Origin: Gallionella sp.
GTDB lineage: Bacteria > Pseudomonadota > Gammaproteobacteria > Burkholderiales > Gallionellaceae
Assembly: GCA_022340615.1 (NCBI GenBank)
Contig: JAJDNO010000015.1
Span: 1 to 57,432 of the forward strand
Direction: 5' to 3'
DNA: 57,432 bases
In this document: positions 11,748 through 46,765 of the stretch, piece after piece
Layout: every line of letters starts with the position of its first letter
Numbering within the stretch: the first letter of the stretch is position 1
Notes under the pieces: generated by a model
The model's database searches: none
What the model was told of the DNA's origin: nothing
What the model saw: only the letters and a program-made list of their open reading frames with translations
Position numbers and translations under genes: made by a program

Positions 11748-12824
11748 TCACATATTCAGTTTTTTTGCCAGCCACTCAGCTGCCTGATTTGCGCCTTCAG
11801 GAATGACCGGCTCCGGTCTGGGCGCGTTCCAGATTTCATCCAGCGCATCGCCTATCGTTCCCTGTTCCAGTTCCGCCCGTGAAACTTCGCGGCACAGGCC
11901 GTTTTGTTGCAGCCATTCGACCAGTGCGGGGGCTTCGGGCCAGTCGGCACGGTTCACGTATAGCACCGGCACGCCGCTGCTCGCCGCTTCGACGAAGCTG
12001 CCGTAGCCGGGCTTGCAGATCAGCGCGTCGCTGCTGGCGAGCAGGTCGCTGAAATGCATGTTCAATGTTTCCAGGACGACCGCATCGGGATGTTCGATGT
12101 GCCAGCTTTGCTGGACCAGCCAGCGCACGCCGGGGATGCGCGGCCAGCGTTCGATCGGCAGGCGGCTGGCGATACCGCCCAGGCTGACCAACACCAATTT
12201 TTCATCTTTCGACAATTTCATGTGGCGATCAAGTTCTGTGCGCCGGTTTCCACCGACCGCAGCTATGGGTGCAACCGGGACAAGGTTGGGCAGGCCAGAC
12301 ATCGCCATGCCCGGTGTTGCGCGCAGGAAAGCATCGGCATTTGCGTAGCTGTCATGCATCTGAGCCGCGATGCGATCTTCCCCGCAGTAGTGGCGATAGA
12401 TGTCAGCCCAGTTCAGCGAACACAGCGCGACATTTTCTATTCCCGCCAGCTGCGCTCCCGCCAGCGGCAGATATCCAACGTTGGAAATTACCAGGTCGGC
12501 GCCGAGCCCGAGCAGCAGTTTCGCCTCGTTGTCGACACGACAATCCCAGTCCCGGTGGAACGCGCGGTAGCCGGCACGGCTTTCCTCTACCAGCACGTCC
12601 AGCGCCGAAGACATCACCATGCCGGCATCGCCTTCGCCGGGCAGATGAGCAAACTGCGCATCGATACGCGAGCGCAGGTGGGCAAGAGGAACGGAAGAAC
12701 GCAGCGTCAAACGAAGGCCGGGAAGAAACTGGTGAAGCCGGTTCAGGACGGGCGCAATCTGCGCAACATGGCCGAATCCGTGTCCGGTAATGCTGACGAC
12801 GAGGTGTGGTGCATTGCGCATCAA
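11748..12824 (-). CDS. GT-B type glycosyltransferase-like protein
   Basis: A 358-residue cytoplasmic protein: an N-terminal Rossmann start with SITGHGFGHVAQ (MurG-like glycine-rich loop), and a C-terminal half with LVLVSLGG and the donor-site-like CKPGYGSFVEAASSGVPVLYV motif seen in UDP-sugar GT-B enzymes and in the N-terminal part of plant-type arabinokinase proteins. It probably transfers or handles a nucleotide sugar; the acceptor is unknown. It stands alone between the foldback element and the divergent ovoA gene. Confidence 0.7.
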   Translation of the reverse strand: MMRNAPHLVVSITGHGFGHVAQIAPVLNRLHQFLPGLRLTLRSSVPLAHLRSRIDAQFAHLPGEGDAGMVMSSALDVLVEESRAGYRAFHRDWDCRVDNEAKLLLGLGADLVISNVGYLPLAGAQLAGIENVALCSLNWADIYRHYCGEDRIAAQMHDSYANADAFLRATPGMAMSGLPNLVPVAPIAAVGGNRRTELDRHMKLSKDEKLVLVSLGGIASRLPIERWPRIPGVRWLVQQSWHIEHPDAVVLETLNMHFSDLLASSDALICKPGYGSFVEAASSGVPVLYVNRADWPEAPALVEWLQQNGLCREVSRAELEQGTIGDALDEIWNAPRPEPVIPEGANQAAEWLAKKLNM

Positions 12825-30593: not shown

Positions 30594-31202
30594 TTATTCC
30601 GCAAGCACGGTGTGCATGCTGTTGCGCTCGCTGATGCGCGAGAACCATTTGGCCAGATTCGGGTGCGCGCTGCGCCAGTCGCGTTCCGGCTGGCGCAGGT
30701 CCAGATAGATCAGCGCGCTGGCCAGCGCCAGGTCGGCCAGCGTGATCGCCGAACCCTCGCACCATTCATTACGTCCAAGTTGATCCGAGGCAAAGACCAG
30801 CGCGCGCGAAATTGCTTCGTTGTTGCGGTCGATGTTGTCGGCCAGCTGGTGTTCCGCGTCGCGCATCCGTTCGGTGCGCACCACCACGGCCGAATCCATG
30901 ATGCCGTCCGCGAGCGCCTCCCAGCGTTTCACGCGCATCCGCGCCAGCGCGTCGTTGCGCGGAATCAGTATCGGGGTATCGTTCAGCGCGTCCGCATATT
31001 CGGCGATCACCGGCGAATCGAACACGCAGGTCTCGTTATCCAGTATCAGCGCAGGAATCCGGCCGAGCGGATTGACGCGCGCCACCTGGCTGCCCGGTTC
31101 GCGGGGCGGGTCGACCAGATAGTCGTGGGCAATGTGCTTCTCCAGCATGACCAGGCGCACCTTGCGCACATAGGGGCTGGTATTGGTGCCAAGCAGTATC
31201 AT
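30594..31202 (-). CDS. Glutathione S-transferase family protein
   Basis: A 202-residue GST: N-terminal thioredoxin fold with TSPYVRKVRL, NPLGRIPAL and the DSPVIAEY motif (the usual ES/DS glutathione-binding step), followed by an all-helical C-terminal domain. The start is 31202 because GGAG is seven bases upstream and the fold begins at MILLGTNTSPY; the farther ATG (31238) is unlikely. Specific substrate unknown. Confidence 0.9.
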   Translation of the reverse strand: MILLGTNTSPYVRKVRLVMLEKHIAHDYLVDPPREPGSQVARVNPLGRIPALILDNETCVFDSPVIAEYADALNDTPILIPRNDALARMRVKRWEALADGIMDSAVVVRTERMRDAEHQLADNIDRNNEAISRALVFASDQLGRNEWCEGSAITLADLALASALIYLDLRQPERDWRSAHPNLAKWFSRISERNSMHTVLAE

Positions 31203-31221
31203 GAAGTTTCTCCGGTAAGGG

Positions 31222-31239
31222 CTTGCCGGATTCGGCAAG
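31222..31239. promoter_or_regulatory. Perfect dyad upstream of the transporter-kinase gene
   Basis: CTTGCCG (31222-31228) and CGGCAAG (31233-31239) form a perfect 7-bp inverted repeat with a 4-nt spacer in the 171-bp region between the divergent GST and transporter-kinase genes. It could be an operator or a hairpin in the leader of either gene. A TATAGT box lies about 10 bp to the right, but no good -35 at the right distance. Confidence 0.35.
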
Positions 31240-31373
31240 AATGTTTTGTATAGTCCGGCTATTGTCGGGCAGGACAGACAGCAAGTCCATAGACGACGGA
31301 ATCACTGGTCGCGCAGAGGGGAATAATTTCCGGGGATCAACGGTAGTGGTGTACTTGGCGTCTTTTAGCATCT

Positions 31374-34300
31374 ATGATTGCAGCCAGGTTAATTCGATCA
31401 GCTGCTCAGCCATCCCTCCCAGTACTCATGGCATCTTCGCTTAATTCAGACACACTCGCTGCTTCACCGATCGATGCCACCCAGCGGGTGGTCAAGGTGC
31501 GGCGCGACTACAATACCTGGGTTGCCAACGAAACGCTGGAAGATTATGCGCTGCGCTTTACACCCCGTTCATTCCGCAAGTGGTCGGAACTGCGCGTTGC
31601 CAACACTGCGCTGGGGGCTGCTTCATTCCTGGTGCTGGAAGCCGTCGGCGGCACGATCACGATCAACTACGGTTTCACCAATGCGTTCTGGGCAATATTG
31701 ACGGTCGGCCTGATCATATTCCTGACCGGGATGCCGATCAGCTATTACGCGGCAAAATTCGGCGTCGACATGGACCTGCTGACGCGCGGTGCCGGTTTCG
31801 GATATATCGGTTCAACCATCACCTCGTTCATCTACGCGTCGTTTACCTTCATCCTGTTCGCGCTCGAAGCGGCGATCATGGCCTACGCGCTCGAGATGTT
31901 TTTCCATGTCCCGCTCTACCTGGCATACCTGCTGAGCGCGCTGGTGGTGATTCCTCTGGTCACGCACGGCATCACGCTGATCAGCCGGATACAGATGCTG
32001 ACGCAGCCGCTGTGGATTTTGCTGATGCTGTTGCCGCTGGTGATGGTATTGCACAAGGAGCCGCATCTGCTGTCGGACTTGCTGGATTTTGGAGGAAGGG
32101 CCGACACCTCCCGTTTCAACATCTACCTGTTCGGATCGGCAATGGCGGTCGGTGTCGCGCTGATCACTCAGATCGGGGAGCAGGTCGACTACCTTCGCTT
32201 CATGCCGGAAAAAACCCCGGAAAACAGCGCCCGCTGGCATGCCGGCGTTCTGATAGCGGGGCCCGGCTGGGTTGTGATTGGCATCCTGAAAATGCTCGCT
32301 GGCGCAATGCTTGCATTCCTTGCCATACGCTACGGTTTCGCCTGGAACGAGGCCAACAATCCGACGCAGATGTACCAGCTGGCCTACACCTATGTGTTCG
32401 ACAACCAGAACCTGGTGATGGTCGCCACGGTGCTGTTTGTCTGCGTATCGCAAATCAAGATCAACATGACCAATGCCTATGCGGGTTCGCTGGCTTGGTC
32501 GAATTTCTTTGCGCGCCTGACGCACAGCCATCCGGGGCGCGTGGTATGGATGGTGTTCAACGCGCTGATCGCAGTGATGCTGATGGAACTGAACGTGTTC
32601 CAGGCGCTGGGGCAGGTGCTGGCACTTTATTCGAATATCGCGATCTCGTGGATCGCCGTCGTGGTTGCCGACCTGGTCATCAACAAGCCGCTGGGTTTCA
32701 GCCCGCCCGGCATCGAGTTCAAGCGGGCATTCCTTTACGACATCAATCCGGTCGGCGTGGGGGCGATGGGGCTGGCTTCGCTTCTTTCCATTTCCGCATT
32801 CTTCGGCGCATTCGGCGTGCAGGCGCAGGCATTTTCGGCATTCATCGCGCTGATCACCGCGCTGGTCGCGTCGCCGCTGATCGCGTGGTACACGCGCGGC
32901 AAATACTACATCGCGCGCGACACGGGACATGTTGCCGCGAAACCGGAGTCATCCTCGCGTTGCTGCATTTGTGAACGGCAATACGAACCCGAAGACATGG
33001 CGCATTGCACCGCGTACCGGGGAAATATCTGTTCGCTGTGCTGCACGCTGGATGCGCGCTGCAATGACATCTGCAAACCGGCAGAAACCCGGATCGGAAT
33101 CCAGGCCTCGCAATTGATCAGGAGACTGCTCCCTGAAATGCTGTGGCGGCCGCTTGAAACCGGACTGGGGCATTTCCTGCTGCTGATGGCGGCGATCATC
33201 ACGCTGCTGGCCGCCACGCTCGGGTTGATCTACTACCACCAATATACGCTGGTCGGAAACGTGCCCGCGCTGGTGCCGCAGATGGAATTGCTGTTCATCA
33301 AGATATTCGCCGCACTGGTTTTCCTTGGCGGCATTGTTGCGTGGTGGCTGGTATTGACCAGTGAAAGCAGACGGGTTGCGCAGGAGGAATCGAACCGGCA
33401 AACCAGCCTGCTGATGCAGGAAATCGAATCCCACCAGCGCACCGACGAACAGCTGCAGAAAGCAAAACGGGATGCCGACCGGGCCAACCTGGCCAAGAGC
33501 CGCTACATCATCACCATCAGTCATGAACTGCGCACGCCGCTGAACAGCATCCTCGGCTACGCGCAGATACTCGATGCCGACGAATCGGTGCCCGCCCATC
33601 GCAAGCAGGCGGTCGGGGTGATCCGCCGCAGCGGCGACCACCTGCTGTCGCTTATCGAGAGCACGCTGGACATTGCCCGTATCGAAGGCGGGCGCCTGAA
33701 ACTGGACGTGAAGCCCCAGCATTTCGCGGATTTCATCCAGCAGATCGTGTACATGTTCGAATTGCAGGCGCTCAACAAGGGCCTGGAATTCTTCTACCAG
33801 CCCGAGGCCGGGTTGCCGTTTGCGGTCCGCGCCGACAAGCGGCGTCTCGGGCAGATTCTGATCAACATGCTGAGCAATGCGGTCAAGTTCACCGAAAGCG
33901 GCGGGATTATCTTTCGCGTGAAGTATGCTCGCGAGATGGCGATTTTCGAGATCGAGGACAGCGGCCCGGGAATATCGGCGGAAGAGCTCGAGCATATCTT
34001 CGAGCCGTTCGCGCGCGGCAATACCCAGTCCAGCGGAACCGGGGTGGGACTGACCATCAGCAAGATGCTGACGGATCTGATGGGCGGGGAACTGTCCGTC
34101 AGAAGCACGCTCGGGGTCGGCAGCACTTTCCAGGTGCGGCTGTTCCTTCCCGAGGTGCGCGCTTTTGTCCCGGTTGAAGAGACGCAGCGCGTGCGCCATC
34201 GCGTTGGCTATAACGGCGAACGCCGCAGGGTCCTGATCGTCGACAACGAAAAGGCGGACCGGGAATTGCTGGCCAGCATACTGGCACCGCTCGGATTCGA

Positions 34301-34850
34301 GCTGATGGAGGCCGAGTCCGGAACGGATTGCCTGACTATGCTGCCGGCGTTCGACCCACACCTGATCCTGATGGATCTTGCGATGCCCGGCATCGACGGT
34401 TGGGAAACGATACGCCGCATCCACAGCCAGAAAAATTTCCAGCCAAAGATCGCGATTGTCTCGGCCAATGCATTCGACAAGGAACTGGAGAATGATGTCG
34501 GCATTCCACCCGAAGACTTTATCCTCAAGCCGGTACAGGTCGACGAATTCATCGAATGGGTCGGGCTGCAGCTTGATATCGAGTGGCTTTTTCACGAGCC
34601 TGTTGCCGAATTGGCCGGGCCTGCCGACCTGCATCATGCCGGGCTTGATTATCCGTCCGGAGAGATCCTGCGGGAGCTGGCGGAACTGGCTTCGATCGGA
34701 TATGTCCGGGGTATCCTGAAAAAGATCGAGGAAATCGAGGCAGCGGGCCAGCTTCATGCAGAATTTGCCCAGCTCGCTCGAAGGTTTGTCGGACAGTTCC
34801 AGCTTGACGCGCTGTCCCGCCTGATCAGGGAGGGTTTGGCGGGTGCCTAA
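31374..34850 (+). CDS. NCS1-type transporter / hybrid histidine kinase / receiver fusion
   Basis: A 1,158-residue protein. Residues 60-510 form a transporter of the NCS1 family with about 12 membrane helices (EAVGGTITINYGF, GIEFKRAFLYDINPVG). Residues 530-567 hold nine cysteines and a histidine in CxxC-like pairs, a probable zinc site. Two more membrane helices (600-660) lead to a coiled linker, HisKA (H717 in ISHELRTPLNS), HATPase (NMLSNAVKF, DSGPGIS, GTGVGLTISK) and a receiver (955-1065; D1001, K1052). The likely start is this ATG or ATG 31428; neither has a good ribosome site. It overlaps the response regulator gene by 8 bp and precedes urtABCDE, so it probably senses urea or a related nitrogen compound (inference). 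Confidence 0.9.
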   Translation: MIAARLIRSAAQPSLPVLMASSLNSDTLAASPIDATQRVVKVRRDYNTWVANETLEDYALRFTPRSFRKWSELRVANTALGAASFLVLEAVGGTITINYGFTNAFWAILTVGLIIFLTGMPISYYAAKFGVDMDLLTRGAGFGYIGSTITSFIYASFTFILFALEAAIMAYALEMFFHVPLYLAYLLSALVVIPLVTHGITLISRIQMLTQPLWILLMLLPLVMVLHKEPHLLSDLLDFGGRADTSRFNIYLFGSAMAVGVALITQIGEQVDYLRFMPEKTPENSARWHAGVLIAGPGWVVIGILKMLAGAMLAFLAIRYGFAWNEANNPTQMYQLAYTYVFDNQNLVMVATVLFVCVSQIKINMTNAYAGSLAWSNFFARLTHSHPGRVVWMVFNALIAVMLMELNVFQALGQVLALYSNIAISWIAVVVADLVINKPLGFSPPGIEFKRAFLYDINPVGVGAMGLASLLSISAFFGAFGVQAQAFSAFIALITALVASPLIAWYTRGKYYIARDTGHVAAKPESSSRCCICERQYEPEDMAHCTAYRGNICSLCCTLDARCNDICKPAETRIGIQASQLIRRLLPEMLWRPLETGLGHFLLLMAAIITLLAATLGLIYYHQYTLVGNVPALVPQMELLFIKIFAALVFLGGIVAWWLVLTSESRRVAQEESNRQTSLLMQEIESHQRTDEQLQKAKRDADRANLAKSRYIITISHELRTPLNSILGYAQILDADESVPAHRKQAVGVIRRSGDHLLSLIESTLDIARIEGGRLKLDVKPQHFADFIQQIVYMFELQALNKGLEFFYQPEAGLPFAVRADKRRLGQILINMLSNAVKFTESGGIIFRVKYAREMAIFEIEDSGPGISAEELEHIFEPFARGNTQSSGTGVGLTISKMLTDLMGGELSVRSTLGVGSTFQVRLFLPEVRAFVPVEETQRVRHRVGYNGERRRVLIVDNEKADRELLASILAPLGFELMEAESGTDCLTMLPAFDPHLILMDLAMPGIDGWETIRRIHSQKNFQPKIAIVSANAFDKELENDVGIPPEDFILKPVQVDEFIEWVGLQLDIEWLFHEPVAELAGPADLHHAGLDYPSGEILRELAELASIGYVRGILKKIEEIEAAGQLHAEFAQLARRFVGQFQLDALSRLIREGLAGA

Positions 34851-35796
34851 AAATATTCTTGACCATCGCGCATTGGATGTCGTGCTGGTAGTGGACGACA
34901 TACCGGAGAACCTGTTGATGCTGCATGACGCGCTGGATGAGGCGGGCTACACCGTGCTGGTCGCAACCAACGGTGAAAGCGCGATCAAGAGCGCGCGCCA
35001 GGGAGTGCCCAATATCATACTGCTTGATGCGATGATGCCGGGTATGGACGGATTCGAGGTTTGCCGAAGACTGAAGGCCGATTACGCGACCCAGCACATA
35101 CCGGTGATCTTCATGACCGGTCTGACCGAGACTGAACATGTGGTGGCGGCTTTCGACGCAGGTGGAACCGATTACGTGACCAAGCCGCTCAAGCCGCCCG
35201 AGGTGCTGGCCCGGATGGCCTCGCATCTGCAGCGCGCCCGCGCGACCGACCAGGCGCGCACCGCGCTGGATGCATTCGGGCAGGGGTCGGTCGCGATCAT
35301 GCCGCAGGACGGCGCGCTGGTCTGGCAGACACCGCTGGCAAGACGAATGTTGCGGGATTACTTCGGGGAACTGGACGAACGGGCGCCGCAACTGATGATG
35401 GACTGGATCGGCAGCATCGCTGCCTCGCGCGCTACAGGAGACGAACCGGCGACGCTTAAAGTGGTGTGCGATGGCAAGCAGCTGATCGTGACATTTTCCT
35501 CTCAGACCGATGAGGGGGAATGGCTGCTGATGCTGCGCGAGGAATCCGACGTCGCGCAGATGGAAATCCTGATGGCGGCTTTCAAGCTGACCATGCGCGA
35601 AGCGGAAGTGCTTTACTGGCTGGTCAAGGGCAAGACCAGCCGCGACATCGGCAGCATCCTCGGGACCAGTCCGCGTACCGTGAACAAGCACCTCGAACAC
35701 GTTTTCGAAAAACTAGGCGTGGAAACACGCACCGCTGCTGCTGCCCGCGCCATTGACAAGATACGCGGCAATATTCCCAGGAATGTCGCCAGTTAA
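34843..35796 (+). CDS. LuxR-type response regulator of the urea locus
   Basis: A 317-residue regulator: receiver domain 12-130 (acidic pair D18-D19, phosphoacceptor D62 in LLDAMMPG, K114), a middle segment of unknown fold (130-240), and a LuxR-type helix-turn-helix (246-308, LTMREAEVLYWLVKGKTSRDIG...NKHLEHVFEKLG). GTG 34843 overlaps the kinase gene by 8 bp with GGAGG upstream, so it is coupled to the kinase. It should be phosphorylated by the kinase and bind the dyads upstream of urtA (inference). Confidence 0.92.
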   Translation: MPKNILDHRALDVVLVVDDIPENLLMLHDALDEAGYTVLVATNGESAIKSARQGVPNIILLDAMMPGMDGFEVCRRLKADYATQHIPVIFMTGLTETEHVVAAFDAGGTDYVTKPLKPPEVLARMASHLQRARATDQARTALDAFGQGSVAIMPQDGALVWQTPLARRMLRDYFGELDERAPQLMMDWIGSIAASRATGDEPATLKVVCDGKQLIVTFSSQTDEGEWLLMLREESDVAQMEILMAAFKLTMREAEVLYWLVKGKTSRDIGSILGTSPRTVNKHLEHVFEKLGVETRTAAAARAIDKIRGNIPRNVAS

Positions 35797-35829
35797 TTCC
35801 TCAAGTTAATCCCCGCCGTTAACACAACC

Positions 35830-35862
35830 TGACGGAAACAACAGCGCCGTTTGTTTCCGCCA
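35830..35862. promoter_or_regulatory. Long inverted repeat upstream of urtA
   Basis: TGACGGAAACAA (35830-35841) and TTGTTTCCGCCA (35851-35862) are complementary at 11 of 12 positions, with a 9-bp spacer. It begins 33 bp after the response regulator stop and lies about 205 bp before urtA. No T-tract follows, so it is not a strong terminator; an operator is a reasonable guess. Confidence 0.5.
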
Positions 35863-36011
35863 ACCGGGCGACCAGACCCCGGCGGCAATTTCTCCTGCAC
35901 CCCTCCCGCACAAGCATAGCCCGGCATCCCGTCGCGGCGTACGCAATCTGACGTATGTGCCGGAAATCATAACGCCACTAATCTGGCGCCGTAACAAAGG
36001 GGGCCGGGTTG

Positions 36012-36028
36012 CACCAGCAGCCCTGGTG
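36012..36028. promoter_or_regulatory. Dyad CACCAG-N5-CTGGTG near the urtA start
   Basis: CACCAG (36012-36017) and CTGGTG (36023-36028) form a perfect 6-bp inverted repeat 39 bp before the urtA ATG, overlapping where a core promoter or leader would be. I see no good -24/-12 or -35/-10 pair in this 271-bp gap. It may bind the LuxR-type regulator or form an mRNA hairpin. Confidence 0.4.
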
Positions 36029-36067
36029 ATTTAACCGAGAATTTTTCAATATTTTAGGAGTCTTGCT

Positions 36068-37339
36068 ATGAATACCCGTCGCACATTCATCAAATCCGTG
36101 AGCGCGCTGGCTGCAGGCCTGGCACTCATGACCGGGAGCCTGATGGCACAGGCCGCCGGCAAGCCGCCGATCAAGGTCGGCATCCTGCATTCGTTGTCCG
36201 GCACCATGGCCATTTCCGAGACCGCGCTGAAGAACATGGCGCTGATGACCATCGATGACATCAACAAGCACGGCGGCGTGCTGGGACGCAAGCTGGAGCC
36301 GGTGGTGGTCGATCCGGCTTCCAACTGGCCGCTGTTTGCGGAGAAGGCGCGCGAACTGCTGGCCAAGGACAAGGTAGCGGTGGTGTTCGGCTGCTGGACT
36401 TCGGTTTCCCGCAAATCCGTGCTGCCGGTGTTCAGGGAACTGGACGGCCTGCTGTTCTATCCGGTGCAGTACGAGGGCGAAGAGCTGGAACGCAATGTGT
36501 TCTACACCGGTGCAGCGCCCAACCAGCAAGCGATTCCGGCTGTTGAATACCTGATGAGCAAGGACGGCGGCAGTGCCAAGCGCTTCGTGCTGCTCGGCAC
36601 CGACTATGTCTACCCGCGCACCACAAACAAGATCCTGCGCGCATTCCTGCACAGCAAAGGCGTGGCTGATTCCGACATCATGGAAGAGTACACACCGTTC
36701 GGCTTCAGCGATTACCAGACCATCATCGCGAAGATCAAGAAGTTCGCTTCCGAAGGCAAGAAGACCGCGGTTATCTCGACCATCAACGGTGATTCCAACG
36801 TGCCGTTCTACAAGGAACTCGGCAATCAGGGCATAAAGGCCAAGGATTTGCCGGTGGTCGCATTCTCGGTGGGTGAAGAAGAGCTGCGCGGCGTCGACAC
36901 CAAGCCGCTGGTCGGTCAGCTGGCCGCATGGAACTACTTCATGACCCTGAACAACCCGGTCAATAAGGCATGGAAGAAAGAGTGGGCTGCGTACGTGAAA
37001 AAACACAATTTGCCTGAGCCGGCGCTGACCAACGATCCGATGGAAGCGACCTGGGTCGGCATTCATATGTGGGCGCAGGCTGTCGAGAAGGCCGGCACCA
37101 CCGATGTGGACAAGGTGATCCCGGCGGTCGGCGGCCAGAAATTCAAGGCACCGGATGGATTCACGATCGAAATGGACCCGAAGAACCACCATCTGCACAA
37201 GCCGGTATTCGTCGGCGAAGTCAGGGCTGATGGCCAGTTCAACGTAGTCTGGAAAACACCCGGACCGATCAAGGCGCAACCCTGGAGTCCGTACATCCCC
37301 GGTAATGACAAGAAGAAGGACGAGCCGGATCCTAAGTAA
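36068..37339 (+). CDS. urtA: Urea ABC transporter substrate-binding protein
   Basis: A 423-residue periplasmic binding protein of the branched-chain amino acid/amide type with the UrtA features: PPIKVGILHSLSGTMA, GCWTSVSRKSVLPVF, LLFYPVQYEGEE and the end PWSPYIPG. The N-terminus NTRRTFIKSVSAL has a twin-arginine (RRTFIK) pattern before the hydrophobic part, so export by Tat is likely. TTTTAGGAG lies just before the ATG. It leads urtABCDE and is separated from urtB by hairpins. Confidence 0.95.
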   Translation: MNTRRTFIKSVSALAAGLALMTGSLMAQAAGKPPIKVGILHSLSGTMAISETALKNMALMTIDDINKHGGVLGRKLEPVVVDPASNWPLFAEKARELLAKDKVAVVFGCWTSVSRKSVLPVFRELDGLLFYPVQYEGEELERNVFYTGAAPNQQAIPAVEYLMSKDGGSAKRFVLLGTDYVYPRTTNKILRAFLHSKGVADSDIMEEYTPFGFSDYQTIIAKIKKFASEGKKTAVISTINGDSNVPFYKELGNQGIKAKDLPVVAFSVGEEELRGVDTKPLVGQLAAWNYFMTLNNPVNKAWKKEWAAYVKKHNLPEPALTNDPMEATWVGIHMWAQAVEKAGTTDVDKVIPAVGGQKFKAPDGFTIEMDPKNHHLHKPVFVGEVRADGQFNVVWKTPGPIKAQPWSPYIPGNDKKKDEPDPK

Positions 37340-37450: not shown

Positions 37451-39043
37451 ATGAACATCACAAAATATATCGCGCAAGCAATTCTGGTCGGGCTGATGTT
37501 CGCCGCCGGGGCTGCACATGCGCTGACCGAACAGGACATGATGGCTCTGTCGTCCGGCGACAACGATCAGCGGATCGCGAAACTGGCCACCGTGGTGACG
37601 GCCGGTGACGCTTCGGTGATCCCGTTCCTGAACAGCCTGGAGAATGACGAGGTCAAGTACACCGGAAAAAAAGTCTATATCGTCAACGACAAAGGCACGG
37701 TCGATGCGGCCACCGGCCTCGCGGTGGCACTGCCGGACGATGCGCAGGACGTGATCAACAACAACCGCATGCGCAACAAGCTGGATGCGGCGATCGCCGC
37801 GCTGAACCTGGAATCCACGGATGCGGCGGTGCGCCTGCAGGCGGCAAAAACCCTGAGCCAGTCCGATGCCGGCGAATCGACGCTGGCGCTGGTAAAGAAG
37901 GCGGAAAAGATCGAGAAGAATCCCGAGGTTCATGAACTGCTGGTCGAGATTCGCGCCAGCATCGAGCTGCTCAGCGGCGATCCGGCAGTGCGGATGCAAT
38001 CGGCACGCGATCTGGCAGGCAGCACCAGTTCGGACGTGAAGGATCTGCTTGCGAGCCGCCTGCTGCCCGGCGGCGAGACTGACCCGGATGTGCGCAAGGT
38101 GATCGCCGCCGCGATGCATACCATAGACAAACGCCTGTCCTATTACGAAGCGGCTGGCACGGTGTTTACCGGACTCAGCCTCGGCAGCGTGCTGTTGCTT
38201 GCGGCGCTGGGCCTTGCGATCACCTATGGCCTGATGGGCGTGATCAACATGGCGCACGGCGAGATGATGATGCTGGGCGCCTATGCGACCTACGTGGTGC
38301 AGAACCTGTTCCGCCACTACCTGCCGCAATGGTTCGATGCCTACGTGATTGTTGCGATCCCGGTTGCATTCGTCGTGACCGGGCTGGTCGGCATCGCGCT
38401 GGAGCGCACCGTGATACGCCATCTGTACGGCCGGCCGCTGGAAACCCTGCTGGCGACCTGGGGGATCAGCCTGATCCTGATGCAGCTGGTGCGCACGCTG
38501 TTCGGCGCGCAGAACGTCGAAGTGGAAAACCCCGGCTGGATGTCCGGCGGTGTGCACCTGGCCTCCAATCTGGTGCTGCCCTACAACCGCATCACCATCA
38601 TCCTGTTCGCGTTCGCGGTGCTTCTGCTGGTGTGGGGGCTGCTCAACAAGACGCGCCTCGGCCTGTTTGTCCGGGCCGTCACGCAGAACCGCAAGATGGC
38701 CGGCTGCGTCGGCGTCAATACAGCGCGCATCGATGCCTGGGCATTCGGACTGGGCTCCAGCATTGCCGGCCTGGCCGGCGTCGCGCTGTCGCAGATCGGC
38801 AACGTGGGTCCGGACCTCGGCAAGACTTACATCGTGGACTCGTTCATGGTCGTGGTGGTGGGCGGGGTCGGGCAGCTGGCCGGCACTGTCTATGCAGGGC
38901 TGGGCCTGGGGATCATCAGCAAGTACATGGAAGGATTCACCGGTCCGGTCATGGCCAAGATCATTGTGCTGGTCATCATCATTATCTTCATACAGAAACG
39001 TCCCCAGGGCATATTTGCGCTGAAGGGCCGTTCGGTGGATTGA
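37451..39043 (+). CDS. urtB: Urea ABC transporter permease UrtB with N-terminal extension
   Basis: A 530-residue LivH-type permease. It begins with a signal-peptide-like segment (LVGLMFAAGAAHA), then about 200 residues of helical, repeat-like sequence (LEDDARKLAK-type charged helices, for example VRLQAAKTLSQS and VRMQSARDLAGS), and then eight or so membrane helices (from about 240). The extension is a normal feature of UrtB proteins in proteobacteria. It forms the urea channel with UrtC. The start has only a weak ribosome site (GGGCAATAA). Confidence 0.93.
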   Translation: MNITKYIAQAILVGLMFAAGAAHALTEQDMMALSSGDNDQRIAKLATVVTAGDASVIPFLNSLENDEVKYTGKKVYIVNDKGTVDAATGLAVALPDDAQDVINNNRMRNKLDAAIAALNLESTDAAVRLQAAKTLSQSDAGESTLALVKKAEKIEKNPEVHELLVEIRASIELLSGDPAVRMQSARDLAGSTSSDVKDLLASRLLPGGETDPDVRKVIAAAMHTIDKRLSYYEAAGTVFTGLSLGSVLLLAALGLAITYGLMGVINMAHGEMMMLGAYATYVVQNLFRHYLPQWFDAYVIVAIPVAFVVTGLVGIALERTVIRHLYGRPLETLLATWGISLILMQLVRTLFGAQNVEVENPGWMSGGVHLASNLVLPYNRITIILFAFAVLLLVWGLLNKTRLGLFVRAVTQNRKMAGCVGVNTARIDAWAFGLGSSIAGLAGVALSQIGNVGPDLGKTYIVDSFMVVVVGGVGQLAGTVYAGLGLGIISKYMEGFTGPVMAKIIVLVIIIIFIQKRPQGIFALKGRSVD

Positions 39044-39050: not shown

Positions 39051-40172
39051 ATGTCATCTCGTTACCAGCCAATGTTGTTGCGCCTGATGGGAAATTCCAG
39101 GTGGCGCGGCTATGCCGCAGCGATCTTCTTCCTGTGCATCCTGATGCCGGTGCTGAATCTGGTGGTGCCGCCCGGCAACCTGCTGCATGTTTCGGATTTC
39201 ACCATTTCGATCGGCGGCAAAATGCTGTGCTATGCGATGGTCGCGCTGGCGATGGACCTGATCTGGGGCTATACCGGAATACTCAGCCTTGGCCATGGCG
39301 TGTTCTTTGCGATGGGCGGTTATGCGTTCGGCATGTACCTGATGCGGCAAATCGGCACCGATGGCTCATACCACAGCAACCTGCCGGACTTCATGGTGTT
39401 CCTCGACTGGAAGGCCTACCCGTGGTACTGGACCGGCACCAGTCATTTCCTGTTTGCACTGCTGCTGGTCGTGCTGGTGCCCGGGCTGCTGGCCTTAGTG
39501 TTCGGCTGGTTCGCATTCCGCTCGCGGATCAAGGGCGTGTATTTTTCGATCATTACCCAGGCGATGACTTACGCGTTCATGCTGCTGTTCTTCCGCAACG
39601 AGACCGGCTTCGGCGGCAACAACGGCTTCACCGATTTCCGGCGGATACTCGGTATCCCGATCGCGACCTCCGAAATGCGCATGACACTGTTTGCGCTCAG
39701 CGGCCTGACTTTGCTGGCGATGTTGTGGATGTCGCGTTACATCGTCGACAGCAAGTTCGGCAGGGTGCTGACCGCGATCCGCGACGCCGAATCGCGCGTG
39801 ATGTTTTCCGGCTACAACCCATTGCATTACAAGCTGGCGATCTGGACGCTGTCCGCGATGATGTGCGGCGTGGCCGGCGCGCTGTACGTTCCTCAGGTCG
39901 GCATCATCAACCCGAGCGAAATGTCCACGTCCAACTCGATCGAGATCGCAATCTGGGCGGCGGTGGGCGGACGCGGCACGCTGATCGGCCCGCTGCTCGG
40001 CGCCGGGTTCGTGACCGCCGCGAAGAGCTGGTTTACCGCATCGTTCCCGGAATACTGGCTGTATTTCCTCGGCCTGCTGTTCATCCTGTCCACGCTGTTC
40101 CTGCCCGAGGGCATGATCGGGCTGTTCAGAAAGCTGATGGAAAAACGGAAGCTGATGGGAAAAAGCAGATGA
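39051..40172 (+). CDS. urtC: Urea ABC transporter permease UrtC
   Basis: A 373-residue LivM-type permease with membrane helices throughout and the motif GYTGILSLGHGVFFAMGGYAFG, plus WAAVGGRGTLIGPLLGA near the end, as expected. TGAGGTCTAT precedes the ATG, 7 bp after the urtB stop. Its stop overlaps the urtD start (ATGA). Confidence 0.95.
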   Translation: MSSRYQPMLLRLMGNSRWRGYAAAIFFLCILMPVLNLVVPPGNLLHVSDFTISIGGKMLCYAMVALAMDLIWGYTGILSLGHGVFFAMGGYAFGMYLMRQIGTDGSYHSNLPDFMVFLDWKAYPWYWTGTSHFLFALLLVVLVPGLLALVFGWFAFRSRIKGVYFSIITQAMTYAFMLLFFRNETGFGGNNGFTDFRRILGIPIATSEMRMTLFALSGLTLLAMLWMSRYIVDSKFGRVLTAIRDAESRVMFSGYNPLHYKLAIWTLSAMMCGVAGALYVPQVGIINPSEMSTSNSIEIAIWAAVGGRGTLIGPLLGAGFVTAAKSWFTASFPEYWLYFLGLLFILSTLFLPEGMIGLFRKLMEKRKLMGKSR

Positions 40173-40987
40173 CGATACACGACAACACCGCCGAGATTTC
40201 AAGCGAAGGTGGCAGCCATATCTATCACCCCGGCGTGCTGGATGTATCGCATGGCGTCGTGCTGTACCTGGACGATATCACTGTCAGTTTCGACGGATTC
40301 CGCGCGCTGAACAAGCTGAGCTTCTCCGTCGATGCGGGCGAGCTGCGCTGCATCATCGGTCCCAACGGCGCAGGCAAGACCACGATGATGGACGTGATCA
40401 CCGGCAAGACCCGGCCGGATTCCGGCAGCGCATTCTTCGGCCAGACCATGGACCTCACGCGGATGACGGAGCCACAAATTGCGCATGCCGGGATCGGCCG
40501 CAAGTTCCAGAAGCCGACCGTGTTCGAGCAGCACTCGGTATTCGAGAATCTCGAACTCGCGCTGAAGACCGACAAGCGCATCTGGCATTCGCTGTTCGGC
40601 AAGCTGAGCGGCGAGGAACGCGACAGCATCAACGAAATCCTGGAGACCATCGCGCTGCAGGACAAGGCCGGGGGCCGTGCCGGACTGCTCTCCCACGGAC
40701 AGAAACAATGGCTGGAAATCGGCATGCTGCTGGCACAGCAACCGCAGCTGCTGCTGCTGGACGAACCGGTAGCGGGCATGACGGACCAGGAAACGGAACG
40801 CACCGCGGAGCTGCTCAATCTGCTGGCGGGCAAGCACTCCATCGTGGTGGTGGAGCACGACATGGACTTTGTCGCCAGCATCGCGCGCAAGGTGACGGTA
40901 TTGCACGAAGGCAGCGTACTTGCAGAGGGCGACATGAACAAGGTGCAGAACGACGAGAAAGTGATCGAGGTATATCTTGGGCGCTAA
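40169..40987 (+). CDS. urtD: Urea ABC transporter ATP-binding protein UrtD
   Basis: A 272-residue ABC ATPase of LivG type: Walker A GPNGAGKTT, signature LLSHGQKQWLEIG, Walker B LLLLDEPVAGM, and switch His in VVEHDMDF. ATG 40169 overlaps the urtC stop. A frame extending far upstream across urtC is an artefact. It powers urea import together with UrtE. Confidence 0.95.
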   Translation: MTIHDNTAEISSEGGSHIYHPGVLDVSHGVVLYLDDITVSFDGFRALNKLSFSVDAGELRCIIGPNGAGKTTMMDVITGKTRPDSGSAFFGQTMDLTRMTEPQIAHAGIGRKFQKPTVFEQHSVFENLELALKTDKRIWHSLFGKLSGEERDSINEILETIALQDKAGGRAGLLSHGQKQWLEIGMLLAQQPQLLLLDEPVAGMTDQETERTAELLNLLAGKHSIVVVEHDMDFVASIARKVTVLHEGSVLAEGDMNKVQNDEKVIEVYLGR

Positions 40988-41687
40988 CATTCTTGAAGTC
41001 AGCGGACTGAACCAGTATTACGGCGGCAGCCACATCCTGCGCGACGTGGCGCTCTCGGCACCGATGGGCGCGTGCACCGTGATACTCGGGCGCAATGGCG
41101 TCGGCAAGACCACGCTGCTCAAATGCCTGATGGGGGTATTGCCGATCAGGAGCGGCACGATTTCATTCGACGGACGCGATGTGACTTCTGCGCGCACCTA
41201 CGGCCGCGCGGCTGCGGGCATGGCATACGTGCCGCAGGGGCGCGAGATCTTTCCGCGCCTGACGATAGAGGAAAACCTGCTGATGGGACTGGCGATGGCG
41301 AAAGGAAAGGCCGCGTCGACGATACCGCAGGACGTGTACGACATGTTCCCGGTATTGAAAGACATGCTGCATCGCCGCGGCGGCGACCTCTCCGGCGGAC
41401 AGCAGCAGCAGCTCGCGATTGCGCGCGCGCTGGTGTCGCGCCCCAAGCTGCTTATCCTGGATGAGCCGACCGAGGGCATCCAGCCTTCCATCATCAAGGA
41501 CATCGAGCGCGTGATCCGCATGCTGACGCAGCGCGGCGACATGGCGATTCTGCTGGTCGAGCAATATTACGACTTTGCGCAGGCACTGGCGGACCACTAC
41601 CTGGTCATGTCGCGCGGGCAAGTGGTGAAGCAGGGCGAAGGCAAGGACATGGAGCGGGACAACATCCGCGATTTCGTGGCATTATGA
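40977..41687 (+). CDS. urtE: Urea ABC transporter ATP-binding protein UrtE
   Basis: A 236-residue LivF-type ABC ATPase with Walker A GRNGVGKTT, signature LSGGQQQQLAIARAL and Walker B LLILDEPTEGIQPS, the last typical of UrtE. The start is TTG 40977, 11 bp inside urtD; no ATG or GTG in frame gives a family-like N-terminus. The ureD start follows the stop by 3 bp, so transport and urease genes look continuous. Confidence 0.94.
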   Translation: MGANILEVSGLNQYYGGSHILRDVALSAPMGACTVILGRNGVGKTTLLKCLMGVLPIRSGTISFDGRDVTSARTYGRAAAGMAYVPQGREIFPRLTIEENLLMGLAMAKGKAASTIPQDVYDMFPVLKDMLHRRGGDLSGGQQQQLAIARALVSRPKLLILDEPTEGIQPSIIKDIERVIRMLTQRGDMAILLVEQYYDFAQALADHYLVMSRGQVVKQGEGKDMERDNIRDFVAL

Positions 41688-41690: not shown

Positions 41691-42551
41691 ATGCATACGA
41701 CAGCCGTATTGAACCCGATTGCACTTCCACATTGGGAGGCGGAACTGAAGCTTGGATTCATACGGCGCGACGGCCGCAGCTATCTGGCGCAGCGCCATCA
41801 TCGCGGCCCCCTGGTGGTACAGAAAACACTCTATCCGGAAGGCGAATCGGTCTGTCATGCGATCATCCTGCATCCGCCCGGTGGCGTGGCGGGCGGAGAC
41901 CGGCTGAAAATCAGCGTGAATGCCGGACAGGATGCGCACGCGCTGCTGACCACGCCGGGCGCCGGAAAATGGTACAAGGCGAACGGCAGGGAGGCATCTC
42001 AGCATGTTGAATTCCAGGTGGACGACAATGCCGTGCTGGAATGGCTGCCGCAGGAAACCATCGTTTACGACGCAGCTCAGGTCGTATGGGATACAACGGT
42101 AACGCTGGCAGAGTCTGCGCGTTATGCCGGCTGGGAAATCACCTGTCTTGGGCGGCAGGCAAGCAGCGAACAATTTCAAAGCGGCAGTTTGCGGCAAGGT
42201 TTGCGGATATACCGCTCTTCCCGCCTGATCTGGGCAGAGCACGGCAAGCTGGATGGTGGCGCCGAGATGCTCTTGTCCCCGGTCGGGTTGCATGGCTGTT
42301 CGGTCTATGCGACATTCGTCGTGGCGGCCGGCAGCACGCCGCCACAGCTGCTGGAAGGCTGCCGCGCAGTACCGGCAGCTGACCCGGGGCAGGGACGGGT
42401 CGGCGTGACCGCATTGCCCGAGGTTTTCGTCGCACGATATCTCGGCAACAGCGCGCAGGCGGCACGGCATTATTTCGAGGCGATATGGGCGGTGTGGCGG
42501 CCGCATTATGCGGGCGTCGCGGCACAGCGCCCGAGAATATGGAATACCTGA
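41691..42551 (+). CDS. ureD: Urease accessory protein UreD
   Basis: The 286-residue protein is the scaffold of the urease activation complex. Family motifs: LKLGFIRRDGRSYLAQRHHRGPLVVQKTLYPEG, IILHPPGGVAGGD and ALLTTPGAGKWY. Length is normal. It joins UreF and UreG to load nickel into the apo-urease. It begins 3 bp after urtE. Confidence 0.95.
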   Translation: MHTTAVLNPIALPHWEAELKLGFIRRDGRSYLAQRHHRGPLVVQKTLYPEGESVCHAIILHPPGGVAGGDRLKISVNAGQDAHALLTTPGAGKWYKANGREASQHVEFQVDDNAVLEWLPQETIVYDAAQVVWDTTVTLAESARYAGWEITCLGRQASSEQFQSGSLRQGLRIYRSSRLIWAEHGKLDGGAEMLLSPVGLHGCSVYATFVVAAGSTPPQLLEGCRAVPAADPGQGRVGVTALPEVFVARYLGNSAQAARHYFEAIWAVWRPHYAGVAAQRPRIWNT

Positions 42552-42573: not shown

Positions 42574-42876
42574 ATGGAACTGACACCGAGAGAGAAGGAC
42601 AAGCTGCTGATCTTCACCGCCGGCCTGCTGGCCGAGCGCCGCAAAGCCAAGGGACTCAAACTCAATTACCCGGAAGCGGTCGCGTATATTTCCGCCGCGA
42701 TCCTCGAAGGCGCACGCGAGGGGCGCACAGTCGCCGAACTGATGAACTTCGGCACCACCCTGCTGACACGCGACGACGTGATGGATGGCATCGCCGAACT
42801 CATTCCGGAAATCCAGGTCGAGGCAACTTTCCCGGATGGCACCAAACTGGTCACGGTGCACCACCCGATTCTTTAA
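42574..42876 (+). CDS. ureA: Urease gamma subunit
   Basis: A 100-residue urease gamma subunit with the full-length family sequence: [23 protein letters not shown] start and the end [14 protein letters not shown]. It forms the trimer-of-trimers with UreB and UreC. Start has no strong ribosome site beyond AGATTTAAACG. Confidence 0.97.
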
Positions 42877-42906: not shown

Positions 42907-43533
42907 ATGAAGCGCATTCTGCCCGGGTTCATTCTGCTGTTACCTACCATGGCCTATGCACACCTCGGCAATGACGCCGGCCTGCATCATGTTTCGGCAT
43001 TTCTCGCCGGATTCATCCATCCCTTCACCGGGCTGGACCACATGCTCGCGATGATTGCGGTCGGCATCTGGAGTGTGCAGGCATTCAGGCACACGCGCAG
43101 CAAGGACGGTGCCCGGGTGTCGGCCAGGGTATCGGCCAAGGTATGGATAGTCCCGCTGGCATTCGCGGGACTGATGATGGCTGGCGGCGTGTTCGGGATT
43201 GCCGGAGTCCGCACGCCGCTCGTCGAACCGATGATCGCCGCTTCACTGCTGGTGCTGGGCCTGTTCGTCGCATTGCGGGTGAAGCTTCCGCTGCCGGCAG
43301 GCGCGGCGATGGTCGGTACCTTTGCAGTGTTTCACGGCCTCGCCCACGGCAGCGAACTGCCCGCAGGCCATGCGCTCGCGCTGCTGTGCGGCATGGTGAT
43401 CGCAACGATGCTGCTGCACGTAACCGGCATGCTGCTGGGCCGCTTCGTGATGGAGCGCAACGTGTGGTTGCCGCGCATTGCCGGCGCTGCCGCTGCGGCT
43501 TTCGGCATCGGTTTGCTGGCCGCTTCTTTCTGA
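42907..43533 (+). CDS. ureJ: HupE/UreJ family nickel transporter
   Basis: A 208-residue membrane protein with a cleavable signal (AYAH near residue 18), the defining [11 protein letters not shown] motif (about 38-48), and six or so helices. HupE/UreJ proteins are nickel permeases. Placing it between ureA and ureB supplies metal to urease within the same operon. GAGGAG precedes the ATG. Confidence 0.93.
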
Positions 43534-43543
43534 GGGAGCGAGC

Positions 43544-43852
43544 ATGATTCCCGGTGAACTTCTGGTGGACGACGGCGAAATGGAACTGAACGCCGGCCGC
43601 CGCACGCTGAGTCTGGTTGTTGCGAATACCGGCGACCGGCCGATACAGGTCGGCTCGCATTACCATTTTGCCGAAACGAATGCCGCGCTCGATTTCGACC
43701 GCGCCGCCGCACGGGGCATGCGGCTCGATATCGCCAGCGGCACCGCGGTCCGCTTCGAGCCGGGGCAGAGCCGCACGGTGAGCCTGGTCGATTACGCCGG
43801 TGATCGAAAAGTGTTCGGATTTCGCGGCCTGGTGCAGGGCGCGCTTGATTAA
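43544..43852 (+). CDS. ureB: Urease beta subunit
   Basis: A 102-residue beta subunit with [19 protein letters not shown] and the [16 protein letters not shown] segment typical of UreB. ATG 43544 is preceded by GAGGGAG. The gene is separated from ureA by ureJ, and from ureC by 12 bp. Confidence 0.96.
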
Positions 43853-43864: not shown

Positions 43865-45568
43865 ATGAGTACTATTTCACGCCGTGCCTATGCCGAGATG
43901 TTCGGCCCCACTGTCGGAGACCGGGTGCGCCTGGCCGATACCGACCTGTTCATCGAAGTCGAGCGCGATTACGCGATCCGCGGCGAGGAAGTCAAATTCG
44001 GCGGAGGCAAGGTGATCCGCGACGGCATGGGCCAGGGGCAGAAAGTCTCCGCCGAGGTTGCCGACACCGTGATCACCAATGCGCTGATCCTGGACTACTG
44101 GGGCATCGTGAAGGCCGACATCGGCATCAAGGACGGGCGCCTTGCCGCGATCGGCAAGGCGGGCAATCCCGACGTGCAGCCCGGTGTCACGATCGCGATC
44201 GGCGGCGGCACCGAGATCATCGCCGGCGAAGGCATGATCGTCACCGCGGGCGGCATCGATACCCATATCCATTTCATCTGCCCGCAGCAGATCGAGGAAG
44301 CGCTGATGTCCGGCGTGACCACGATGATCGGCGGCGGCACCGGGCCTGCCACCGGCACCTATGCAACCACCTGCACGCCGGGCCCGTGGTACATCCATAA
44401 AATGCTGCAGTCTGCCGAAGCGTTCCCGATGAACCTCGGTTTTTTCGGCAAGGGCAACGTTTCCCTGCCCGACCCGCTGATCGAGCAGGTCGAGGCCGGC
44501 GCGCTGGGTTTGAAGCTGCACGAGGACTGGGGCACCACGCCGGCCGCAATCGACAACTGCCTCTCGGTCGCGGAAAAGTACGACGTGCAGGTTGCGATCC
44601 ACACCGACACATTGAACGAATCGGGATTCGTCGAATCGACCGCAGCCGCATTCAAGGGGCGCGCGATCCATACCTTCCATACCGAAGGCGCGGGCGGCGG
44701 CCATGCGCCGGACATCGTGAAGCTGGCCGGCCTGCCGAACGTGCTGCCTTCCTCGACCAACCCGACCCGCCCCTACACCATCAACACGATAGACGAGCAT
44801 CTCGACATGCTGATGGTCTGCCACCATCTCGATCCGGCGATCGCAGAAGACGTCGCATTCGCAGAGAGCCGCATCCGCCGCGAGACGATCGCGGCAGAGG
44901 ACATCCTGCACGACCTCGGCGCGCTGAGCATGTTCTCCAGCGACTCGCAGGCGATGGGGCGTGTCGGCGAAGTGATCCTGCGCTGCTGGCAGACCGCGCA
45001 CAAGATGAAACAGCAGCGCGGCGCATTGCCGGATGACGGCAAGCGCAACGACAACTTCCGCGCAAAGCGCTACATCGCGAAATACACCATCAATCCGGCG
45101 ATCGCGAACGGCATCGCGCACGAAGTCGGCAGCGTGGAAGTCGGCAAACTCGCGGATCTGGTGCTGTGGAAGCCGGCCTTCTTCGGCGTGAAGCCGACAC
45201 TGATCGTGAAGGGCGGCATGATTGCGGCAGCCGCAATGGGTGATGCGAACGCGTCTATCCCCACCCCGCAGCCGGTGCACTACCGCCCGATGTTCGGATC
45301 GTTCGGGAGTGCGCTGAGCACCACCTCGCTGACCTTCGTTTCGCAGGCCGCGCTGTCCAATCCGCAGGTGCTCGCGCTGGGTCTGAAGAAAACCCTGTCG
45401 GCGGTCAAACACACCCGCAACATCGGCAAGAAGGACATGATCCTCAATGATTATGCCCCCGACATCACGGTTGACCCGGAGACCTACCTGGTCCATGCAG
45501 ACGGACAGCTGCTGATGTGCGAGCCGGCGACTACGCTGCCGATGGCGCAGCGCTACTTCCTGTTCTGA
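43865..45568 (+). CDS. ureC: Urease alpha subunit (catalytic)
   Basis: The 567-residue subunit hydrolyses urea to ammonia and carbamate at a dinickel site. H134 and H136 (DTHIHF) and carbamylated-lysine position K217 (GLKLHEDWG) are intact, as are H246 and H272-type ligands ([22 protein letters not shown]). The flap cysteine is in MVCHHLDP. Length and numbering equal Klebsiella UreC. Its stop overlaps the ureE start (TGATG). Confidence 0.98.
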
Positions 45569-46071
45569 TGCTGTATATCACCGAACTGCTGGACCACTCC
45601 GACCGTTACGACGACAGGCTGATACTGCCGTTCGACCGGCGCCAGAAAAGCCGCTTGCGCGTCAGGCTGGAATCCGGCGAGGAAGCGGGGCTGTTCCTGA
45701 AACGCGGCACAATACTGCGCGGCGGAGATTGCGTGCGCGCCAGCGATGCGCGCATCGTGCGGGTGGTTGCTGCGGACGAGCCGGTGATGCGGGTGACTGC
45801 GGAGACTCCTATCCAACTGATGCGCGCCGCCTATCATCTCGGCAACCGACATGTACCGCTGCAGATCGGCGAGGGCTGGCTGCGTCTCGAGCAGGATCAT
45901 GTGCTGATGGAAATGCTGCTCGGGCTGGGGGGTATCAAGGTCGAGAACGAGAACGCGCCGTTCGAACCCGAAGCAGGTGCGTATGGCGGCGGCCATCGCC
46001 ACCACCATGACGATGATGCGCCGGCTCACTTCATCCGTCCGCCGGTGCGGGCCCAGACTGCCCATGATTGA
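45568..46071 (+). CDS. ureE: Urease accessory nickel metallochaperone UreE
   Basis: A 167-residue UreE with the peptide-binding N-terminal domain (FDRRQKSRLRVRLESGEEAGLFL), a central Ni-binding domain with HLGNRHVPLQI, and a His-rich tail GGGHRHHHDDDAPAH. It delivers nickel to the UreDFG complex. ATG 45568 overlaps the ureC stop by one base, and its end overlaps ureF by 8 bp. Confidence 0.95.
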   Translation: MLYITELLDHSDRYDDRLILPFDRRQKSRLRVRLESGEEAGLFLKRGTILRGGDCVRASDARIVRVVAADEPVMRVTAETPIQLMRAAYHLGNRHVPLQIGEGWLRLEQDHVLMEMLLGLGGIKVENENAPFEPEAGAYGGGHRHHHDDDAPAHFIRPPVRAQTAHD

Positions 46072-46765
46072 CGCTCCAGCCGTGATTGACGCGACCGCGC
46101 TGGCCAGATTGCTGCAGCTCGCCAGCCCGATGCTGCCGGTCGGCGCATACAGCTATTCGCAGGGACTGGAAGCGGCGATCGAGGACGGCACGGTGCATGA
46201 CGAGGCCAGCGCCGCGAAATGGATAGGCGATGTGCTGAAACAGTCTCTGTGCAGTTTCGAGCTGCCGCTGCTAAAGCGCATGTGTGCAGCCTGGCAGCAG
46301 GAGGACCATGCAGGGATCCAGCACTGGAATGAATTTTTCTGTGCCGGACGCGAGACCGCGGAGTCGCATGCCGAAACACTGCAAATGGGCTATTCGCTAT
46401 GCCGTTTGCTGAAGTCGCTCGCAGAAGGAAATCACGAGGTATCGTATCGCATCGATGCGCTGACGCCCGGCAGTTTTCCTTCGGCTTATGCGTGCGCCGT
46501 TGCGATCTGGAACATTCCCGTTGCTGCCGCGGTGCAGGCCTATGCGTGGTCATGGCTGGAAAACCAGGTCAGTGCTGCGATCAAGACCATCCCGCTGGGC
46601 CAGACGGATGGCCAGCGCATCCTGTTTTCACTGGCAGGGCAGCTGTCCGGCCTGGTGGATGCCGCGTGCCGCCTGCCCGACGACGAGATCAGCAATTTTG
46701 CGCCCGGCCTCGCGCTGGCCGGCTGCAGGCATGAAACCCAGTACAGCCGGTTGTTCAGGTCATGA
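46064..46765 (+). CDS. ureF: Urease accessory protein UreF
   Basis: A 233-residue, all-helical UreF: LLQLASPMLPVGAYSYSQGLEAAIEDG start, ETAESHAETLQMGYSL and the late ISNFAPGLALAGCRHE. ATG 46064 is set by overlap with ureE and by family alignment. UreF acts as GTPase regulator of UreG in urease assembly. Confidence 0.95.
   Translation: MIDAPAVIDATALARLLQLASPMLPVGAYSYSQGLEAAIEDGTVHDEASAAKWIGDVLKQSLCSFELPLLKRMCAAWQQEDHAGIQHWNEFFCAGRETAESHAETLQMGYSLCRLLKSLAEGNHEVSYRIDALTPGSFPSAYACAVAIWNIPVAAAVQAYAWSWLENQVSAAIKTIPLGQTDGQRILFSLAGQLSGLVDAACRLPDDEISNFAPGLALAGCRHETQYSRLFRS

Follow-up and report, generated by a model that had tools for sequence, protein, structure and literature searches.

The stretch of DNA analysed here, referred to throughout as the window, comprises 57,432 nucleotides of a Gallionella sp. 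genome (contig JAJDNO010000015.1 of assembly GCA_022340615.1), and its central feature is a forward-strand gene (31374..34850) that joins an NCS1-like transporter domain to a hybrid histidine kinase, followed by genes for a response regulator, a urea importer, and urease. The gene translates without a stop into 1158 aa, with an uncertain start codon, the alignments of orthologues beginning anywhere within residues 1-37 and no clear ribosome site being found ahead of 31374. Its N-terminal part is a 12-helix domain (residues ~54-507, 31533..32894) delimited by profile-profile alignment to NCS1 proteins and by hydropathy, which places 12 candidate helices within residues 79-504. This is followed by a cluster of eight cysteines (8-Cys; residues 530-567, 32961..33074) with the spacing C-x2-C-x11-C-x7-C-x2-CC-x5-C-x3-C, recognized by its invariance in alignments, and by two extra membrane helices ahead of the kinase (residues 601-619 and 639-657, 33174..33344; hydropathy). 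Pfam matches and motif inspection then reveal the elements of a hybrid histidine kinase, namely HisKA (residues 708-773, 33495..33692) with the phospho-acceptor His717 in SHELRTPLN, HATPase_c (residues 821-925, 33834..34148) with its N, G1, and G2 boxes, and a receiver (Response_reg; residues 953-1061, 34230..34556) with Asp1001. A preliminary description of this DNA had proposed a single frame of 1,158 residues with a cysteine cluster, two further helices, a HisKA-HATPase core, and a receiver, and all of these were recovered by translation, alignment, hydropathy, and Pfam.

Overlapping the end of the kinase gene, stop codon included, by 8 bases lies the gene of a 317-aa response regulator (34843..35796, forward strand; Pfam), which is composed of REC, a middle part (35212-35586) that has no Pfam match, and a LuxR-type (GerE) helix-turn-helix. 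The 271 bases between the regulator end and the urtA start contain the palindrome TACGCAATCTGACGTA (35940..35955), a response-regulator binding site predicted by motif analysis, 112 bp ahead of the urtA ATG; a search of 31000-36200 revealed no sigma-70-like promoter. The genes that follow are all on the forward strand and begin with those of the urea ABC importer: urtA for the binding protein (36068..37339; TIGR03407, 571 bits against a cut-off of 493), urtB (37451..39043; TIGR03409) and urtC (39051..40172; TIGR03408) for the permeases, and urtD (40169..40987; start approximate; ABC_tran, with UrtD named by operon position) and urtE (40977..41687; TIGR03410) for the ATPases. The urea importer named in the preliminary description is borne out, as UrtA, UrtB, UrtC, and UrtE exceed curated cut-offs. 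Next come ureD (41691..42551; PF01774), ureA for urease gamma (42574..42876; PF00547), a HupE/UreJ gene (42907..43533; PF04955), ureB for urease beta (43478..43852; start approximate; PF00699), ureC for urease alpha (43865..45568; NF009686 and TIGR01792), ureE (45517..46071; PF05194/PF02814), and ureF (45977..46765; PF01730).

Single-sequence searches left the 12-helix domain without a family: PF02133, which the preliminary description had put forward as a check, gave no match to the window protein at E<=10 and none at E<=1 among 61 aligned family sequences, the gathering score of 23.5 bits not being reached, and a PDB sequence search with the kinase N-terminus found nothing. Because both searches were empty, the NCS1 label depends on comparing profiles: 108 family rows, spanning residues 40-520 of the window protein, supplied the query, and the targets were profiles of 30 NCS1 (PF02133), 29 SSF, 29 APC, and 29 NCS2 proteins, picked from genomes by Pfam family (30 loci each) as reading frames checked for length and hydrophobicity. 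The family profile matched NCS1 with a probability of 99.5% (E 7.7e-23, 416 columns), as against 8.0% for AA_permease_2, 0.1% for NCS2, and 6.9% (E 0.005) for the 29 SSF proteins, a value that places the domain outside SLC5 (SSF). Compared singly with the family profile, PutP scored 0.1%, CodB 13%, and AllW 4.9%; an earlier NCS1 profile comparison carries less weight, as one of the proteins in it was closely related to the query. Among weak standalone homologues of the domain, L139 (~30% identity) and L146 reach 36.4 and 84.8 bits with PF02133 and pass its cut-off, L142 falls under it, and L140 and L145 give no match. In a merged alignment, in which filtering left 55 rows of the family and 24 of NCS1, several family residues recur in the NCS1 rows, namely D272 (22/24), R275 (24/24), N364 (18/24), N367 (17/24), and D433 (22/24). 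By these sequence comparisons the kinase N-terminus is a descendant of NCS1 transporters, as the preliminary description had supposed, and it aligns with a transporter family rather than with the non-transporter fold that would have weakened the sensing idea. The host genome (2.27 Mb, 78 contigs) carries the domain in a single copy and has no PF02133 match.

The 8-Cys module is strongly conserved. All 61 aligned N-termini have cysteines 530, 533, 545, 553, 556, 557, 563, and 567 without exception, and in the wider family set each of them is kept by 107 or all 108 of the rows. The N-terminus of NCS1 proteins is cytoplasmic, and a similarly placed N-terminus here would put both the cluster and the kinase inside the cell; the cluster is thus probably cytoplasmic, and probably metal-binding. 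The sequence of residues 530-567 matches neither a Pfam family nor a solved structure, five weak PDB matches to the segment (best E 0.29) being treated as chance, and the module may deserve a family of its own. More widely, residues 510-679 gave no match in a general Pfam scan, in which no STAC profile was compared directly.

The arrangement is not peculiar to Gallionella. In an even draw of 398 Pseudomonadota genomes, 62 have a match to the N-terminal domain at E<=0.001, and in 52 the match has E<1e-150; the NCS1-kinase family is widespread. Named genomes yielded 299 stretches with a gene for a relative, and the best 80 of these 299, which were used here, include Methylophilaceae, Oxalobacteraceae, Rhodocyclales, and Methylophaga. 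Gene neighbourhoods were compared in 56 regions from 51 genomes of the draw, the window's own genome not being counted, and several initial gene clusters that proved on inspection to be antisense frames were excluded. Genes of the urt, urease, or FmdA/AmiE type lie within ~8 kb of the kinase in 54/56 regions, the other two (L151 and L188) being cut by contig ends; by category, 54 regions have the regulator, 48 urt, 37 an amidase, and 13 urease, and amidase identity was upheld in the proteins sampled (FmdA 3/3, CN_hydrolase 2/2). In the named set, urt, urease, or amidase genes occur within 8 kb in 50/80 loci. The linkage of orthologues to urt genes that the preliminary description had proposed to examine is therefore the usual condition, once urease and amidase genes are included. 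At the level of whole genomes, UrtA (E<=1e-100) is present in 51/52 genomes with the kinase vs 118/346 without it (Fisher p 2e-20, ignoring relatedness).

A shared DNA site also links the kinase with the urea genes. Motif discovery on the 37 divergent intergenic stretches between kinase and urtA yielded a 16-bp palindrome, TACG-N8-CGTA, in 29/37 of them and near zero in five shuffle rounds, with 34 copies in the 13,646 bp that separate kinase from urtA vs 7 in the remaining 667,681 bp of the same loci. The exact site precedes kinase-linked urtA in 45/58 cases, made up of the 29/37 of the discovery set and 16/21 others, the window among the latter. Upstream of urtA in kinase-less genomes it was found in 0/40 (one mismatch in 3), these controls coming from the upper part of the UrtA matches, of which not every kinase-less genome was used (G066, G077, G182, and G297, for example, were not), and it occurs in 1/20 of the second, unlinked urtA copies. 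The window holds a single exact site, at 35940-35955, vs 0.13 expected, and the genome as a whole has 9 core matches, of which this one scores highest, with 21.4 bits by a matrix derived from other loci. Beyond urtA, the palindrome lies within 400 bp ahead of the kinase match in 22/80 named loci, a group with many Methylophilaceae and Methylophaga; Methylovirgula has one copy in the stretch that separates formamidase from kinase, and another ahead of an aliphatic amidase. At L001 and L069 the exact palindrome stands further upstream, ahead of the gene preceding urtA. Those two loci carry, between regulator and urtA, a gene of ~380 aa (L001:13029-14165, L069:13205-14371) that is absent in the window and has weak porin similarity in one case (E 0.0018) and none in the other. 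In our reading of these sequences, the palindrome linkage is the strongest evidence for control of the urea operon by the kinase-regulator pair, and we infer that the window regulator binds the 35940-35955 site.

The preliminary description had also suggested a transceptor-like role, in which binding or movement of a ligand controls the kinase, and both the NCS1 alignment and the linkage of orthologues support sensing of this type. We judge it reasonably probable that the protein is a sensor kinase with an NCS1-derived receptor, which senses urea in the window, or small amides, and drives their import and hydrolysis through the LuxR-type regulator. The 12-helix domain would bind urea from outside, or formamide or acetamide-type amides in other branches, and its change of shape would pass through the 8-Cys module and the two extra helices to the HisKA helices and alter kinase activity. 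The kinase would then phosphorylate the adjoining LuxR-type regulator, either directly or with the receiver of the kinase serving as a side store; these two routes are proposed because no Hpt domain was seen among the Pfam matches of kinase or regulator, the other proteins of the genome not having been searched for one. The regulator, on binding the palindrome, would drive urtABCDE and, through their apparent co-transcription with it, the urease genes. Across the family, the kinases probably switch on the adjoining urea/amide genes when such compounds are present, activation being the direction of control that we infer.

The identity of the ligand can be approached from the tree and from the pocket. 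On a FastTree phylogeny of the transporter domain, built without bootstraps and leaving out 29 named loci that have no neighbourhood label, urea and amide labels require 5 changes each vs a shuffled mean of 30.9, the urea-linked rows sitting at several separate places among mostly amide-linked rows; the genomes G225, G246, G379, and G158 each carry one urea-linked and one amide-linked kinase. The substrate ring is flanked by an aromatic pair in Mhp1 (Trp117/Trp220; PMC4195764) and CodB (Trp108/Phe204; PMC9379551). In the 108 family rows available for residue counts (from which those 29 loci as well as L151 and L188 are left out), the corresponding positions hold F 61 and L 47 at 161 and L 107 and M 1 at 263. 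No sequence has Trp at 161, where the window has Leu and where Phe keeps the ring of transmembrane helix (TM) 3 in part of the family, and the NCS1 aromatic sandwich (TM3 Trp, TM6 Trp/Phe) is not present. Loss of the pair would suit a ligand without a ring, and the position of Mhp1 Gln121 is Glu165 in 108/108 rows. Residue 329 is E in 31/37 amide loci, and 68/69 urea/urt loci have N or D there. Together, the tree, the pocket, and residue 329, which are correlations on an alignment, point to small ringless amides, and to urea in the window. Of the ligands named in the preliminary description (urea, allantoin, or a nucleobase), urea is accordingly the one we favour here, with short amides as the likely ligands in other branches, and the absence of the aromatic sandwich speaks against nucleobases and allantoin.

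Whether the domain receives or transports is best considered with its kinase-less relatives. Three such proteins, from A. lwoffii, Methylovirgula, and A. baumannii, have the transporter part together with a Cys cluster that is either complete or partial; none matches a Pfam family, and no further standalone protein was found at E<=1e-20 in the 398-genome draw except L139. The A. lwoffii homologue, plasmid-borne and with a partial cluster (L160:8950-10557), lies directly ahead of a urease cluster and is, by its position, a candidate urea permease. That of Methylovirgula (L161) adjoins kinase, regulator, and amidases, and that of A. baumannii (548 aa; L154:10186-11832, reverse strand) is divergent from a kinase; the intervening DNA has the palindrome, at 11900, and amino-acid-type ABC genes lie past the regulator. 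The Acinetobacter record, listed as a plasmid, is chromosome-sized at 3.66 Mb. A sensor paired with a matching permease recalls UhpC-UhpT. Residue 88 is hydrophobic and residue 89 Glu in 106/106 kinases, as opposed to Asp-Phe or Asp-Gln in the three kinase-less homologues, and sequence alignment maps the two residues to the substrate pocket of Mhp1, in the Ile45 region (PMC4195764). Lys362, invariant in the family, falls by counting within the sodium-site segment of TM8. On balance, we favour a receptor role for the NCS1-like domain, which may also transport. More tentatively, and with rather less than even confidence, we suggest that a branch of NCS1 lost its ring site and gave rise to receptors of acyclic urea and amides, in which residue 329 would track the ligand and residues 88-89 would distinguish permease from sensor, the module transporting when free and sensing when fused.

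The kinase might instead be transporter and sensor in one, with the NCS1 domain carrying urea or amide and the flux setting kinase activity, much as CbrA, which has both activities, does with histidine (PMC7096432, PMC13022988). The NCS1 signature residues are indeed retained, and the position of standalone versions beside urease (L160) or amidase genes (L161) implies that the module probably transports; but the difference at residues 88-89 between all 106 kinase rows and the three standalone proteins, and the high-affinity ABC importer that usually adjoins the kinase, make such a dual role doubtful in our estimation. Lys362 cannot separate sensor from transporter because the standalone proteins share it. 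It is also unlikely, in view of a urea/amide split that follows the transporter-domain tree, that the signal is a mere correlate of urea or amide use, such as ammonium or nitrogen status, redox, or a metal (e.g., nickel) at the 8-Cys cluster. Urease needs nickel and the cluster is invariant in the aligned kinases, but it is found as well in the kinase-less homologue P0003 and in amidase-linked kinases, and we know of no nickel requirement of amidases. Finally, the tight linkage of kinase and urtA, and the fact that no periplasmic sensor domain is among the Pfam matches of the kinase, would agree with a kinase bound by urea-loaded periplasmic UrtA, for which the NCS1 domain would be a docking platform. 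We regard this as highly improbable, given that L152, L153, and L161 have an amidase but no urt nearby, and that at the Acinetobacter locus L154 the linked gene is the permease homologue, with no urtA match in the 27-kb region.

Several observations weigh against the proposed urea- and amide-sensing kinase. As regards the ligand, residues were mapped to Mhp1 and CodB by sequence alignment alone, with an uncertainty of about one residue at TM6, the p-value of the residue-329 pattern ignores relatedness, and the A. lwoffii standalone protein beside urease breaks its pattern with E329. As regards linkage, 14 of the 30 unlinked named loci, several of them Duganella, are flanked on each side by 7.5 kb or more, so that urea/amide genes are absent nearby. 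The kinases L152 (G197) and L153 (G091), which judged by eye end after the ATPase without a receiver, have no linked regulator and adjoin fmdA. As regards the palindrome, 37 of the 58 linked upstreams are the motif discovery set itself, 13/58 lack the exact site (5 of them by one mismatch), no exact palindrome was found at the plasmid loci L159 and L160, and a single core match in the window is by itself unremarkable, since 11/100 shuffles contain one.

Among known systems, the nearest in design are the SLC5-STAC kinases (CbrA, CrbS, RpuS), in which a transporter domain is likewise joined to a kinase core; of these, CrbS, a hybrid kinase, controls a nutrient-use gene, and RpuS/R controls a separate pyruvate symporter (further comparison literature: PMC11109136, PMC9100948, PMC5715377). 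The window protein differs from them in its NCS1 domain, in having the 8-Cys cluster and two helices in the place of STAC, and in its urea/amide targets. Ks-Amt5 of Kuenenia is similarly a membrane transporter reused as a histidine kinase receptor, but its module is Amt, its ligand ammonium, and it is reported to be without PAS, HAMP, or STAC linkers (PMC5764959). Acting like these proteins while falling outside SLC5, the family would be a separate variant of transporter-fused kinases. With Mhp1 and CodB it has in common the NCS1 profile over 416 columns and the Asp, Arg, and Asn positions, whereas the aromatic pair is replaced, Glu165 and Lys362 are invariant, a kinase is fused, and the PF02133 cut-off is not reached. 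GrtK/GrtR, an ammonia-sensing two-component system (PMC12918730), was considered and rejected, GrtK being a 427-aa PilS-like protein.

Parts of the arrangement have been noticed before. A urtABCDE cluster beside formamidase has been suggested to import formamide (PMC13209695), and two-component genes under the labels HK hybrid and LuxR family have been reported with a urtABCDE operon (PMC13296017); the accessible parts of both accounts mention no transporter domain, family, or binding site. The preliminary description had called the fusion not a standard system, which holds insofar as our literature search, beyond whose reach most subscription papers lay, found no description of an NCS1-kinase fusion, but not as to its occurrence, since the arrangement is recurrent and conserved. 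The CbrA-type transporter-kinase has been called a rare case (PMC13022988); the NCS1 kinases, in 52/398 sampled genomes and with a different transporter family, would be a common one, and they suggest a way in which urea and amides may be sensed by many bacteria. The predicted DNA site and the matching standalone permeases would also offer a direct way to test the change from transporter to receptor.

The family extends to plasmids, 514/72,556 plasmid records having a match at E<=1e-100, of which 340 are from Klebsiella. Database labels of plasmid-borne kinases include 'ATP-binding protein' and 'Aerobic respiration control sensor protein ArcB', and recognition of the family would correct such labels, also in hundreds of Klebsiella plasmid records. 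A Chelatococcus plasmid carries the kinase locus with urt and formamidase, a Mitsuaria plasmid with urease and urt, and a Thioclava plasmid with urt, no urease or amidase being in view in the last. Sinorhizobium meliloti 1021 has the locus on pSymB. At the Klebsiella plasmid locus that was opened (L157), the kinase adjoins urtABCDE and formamidase.

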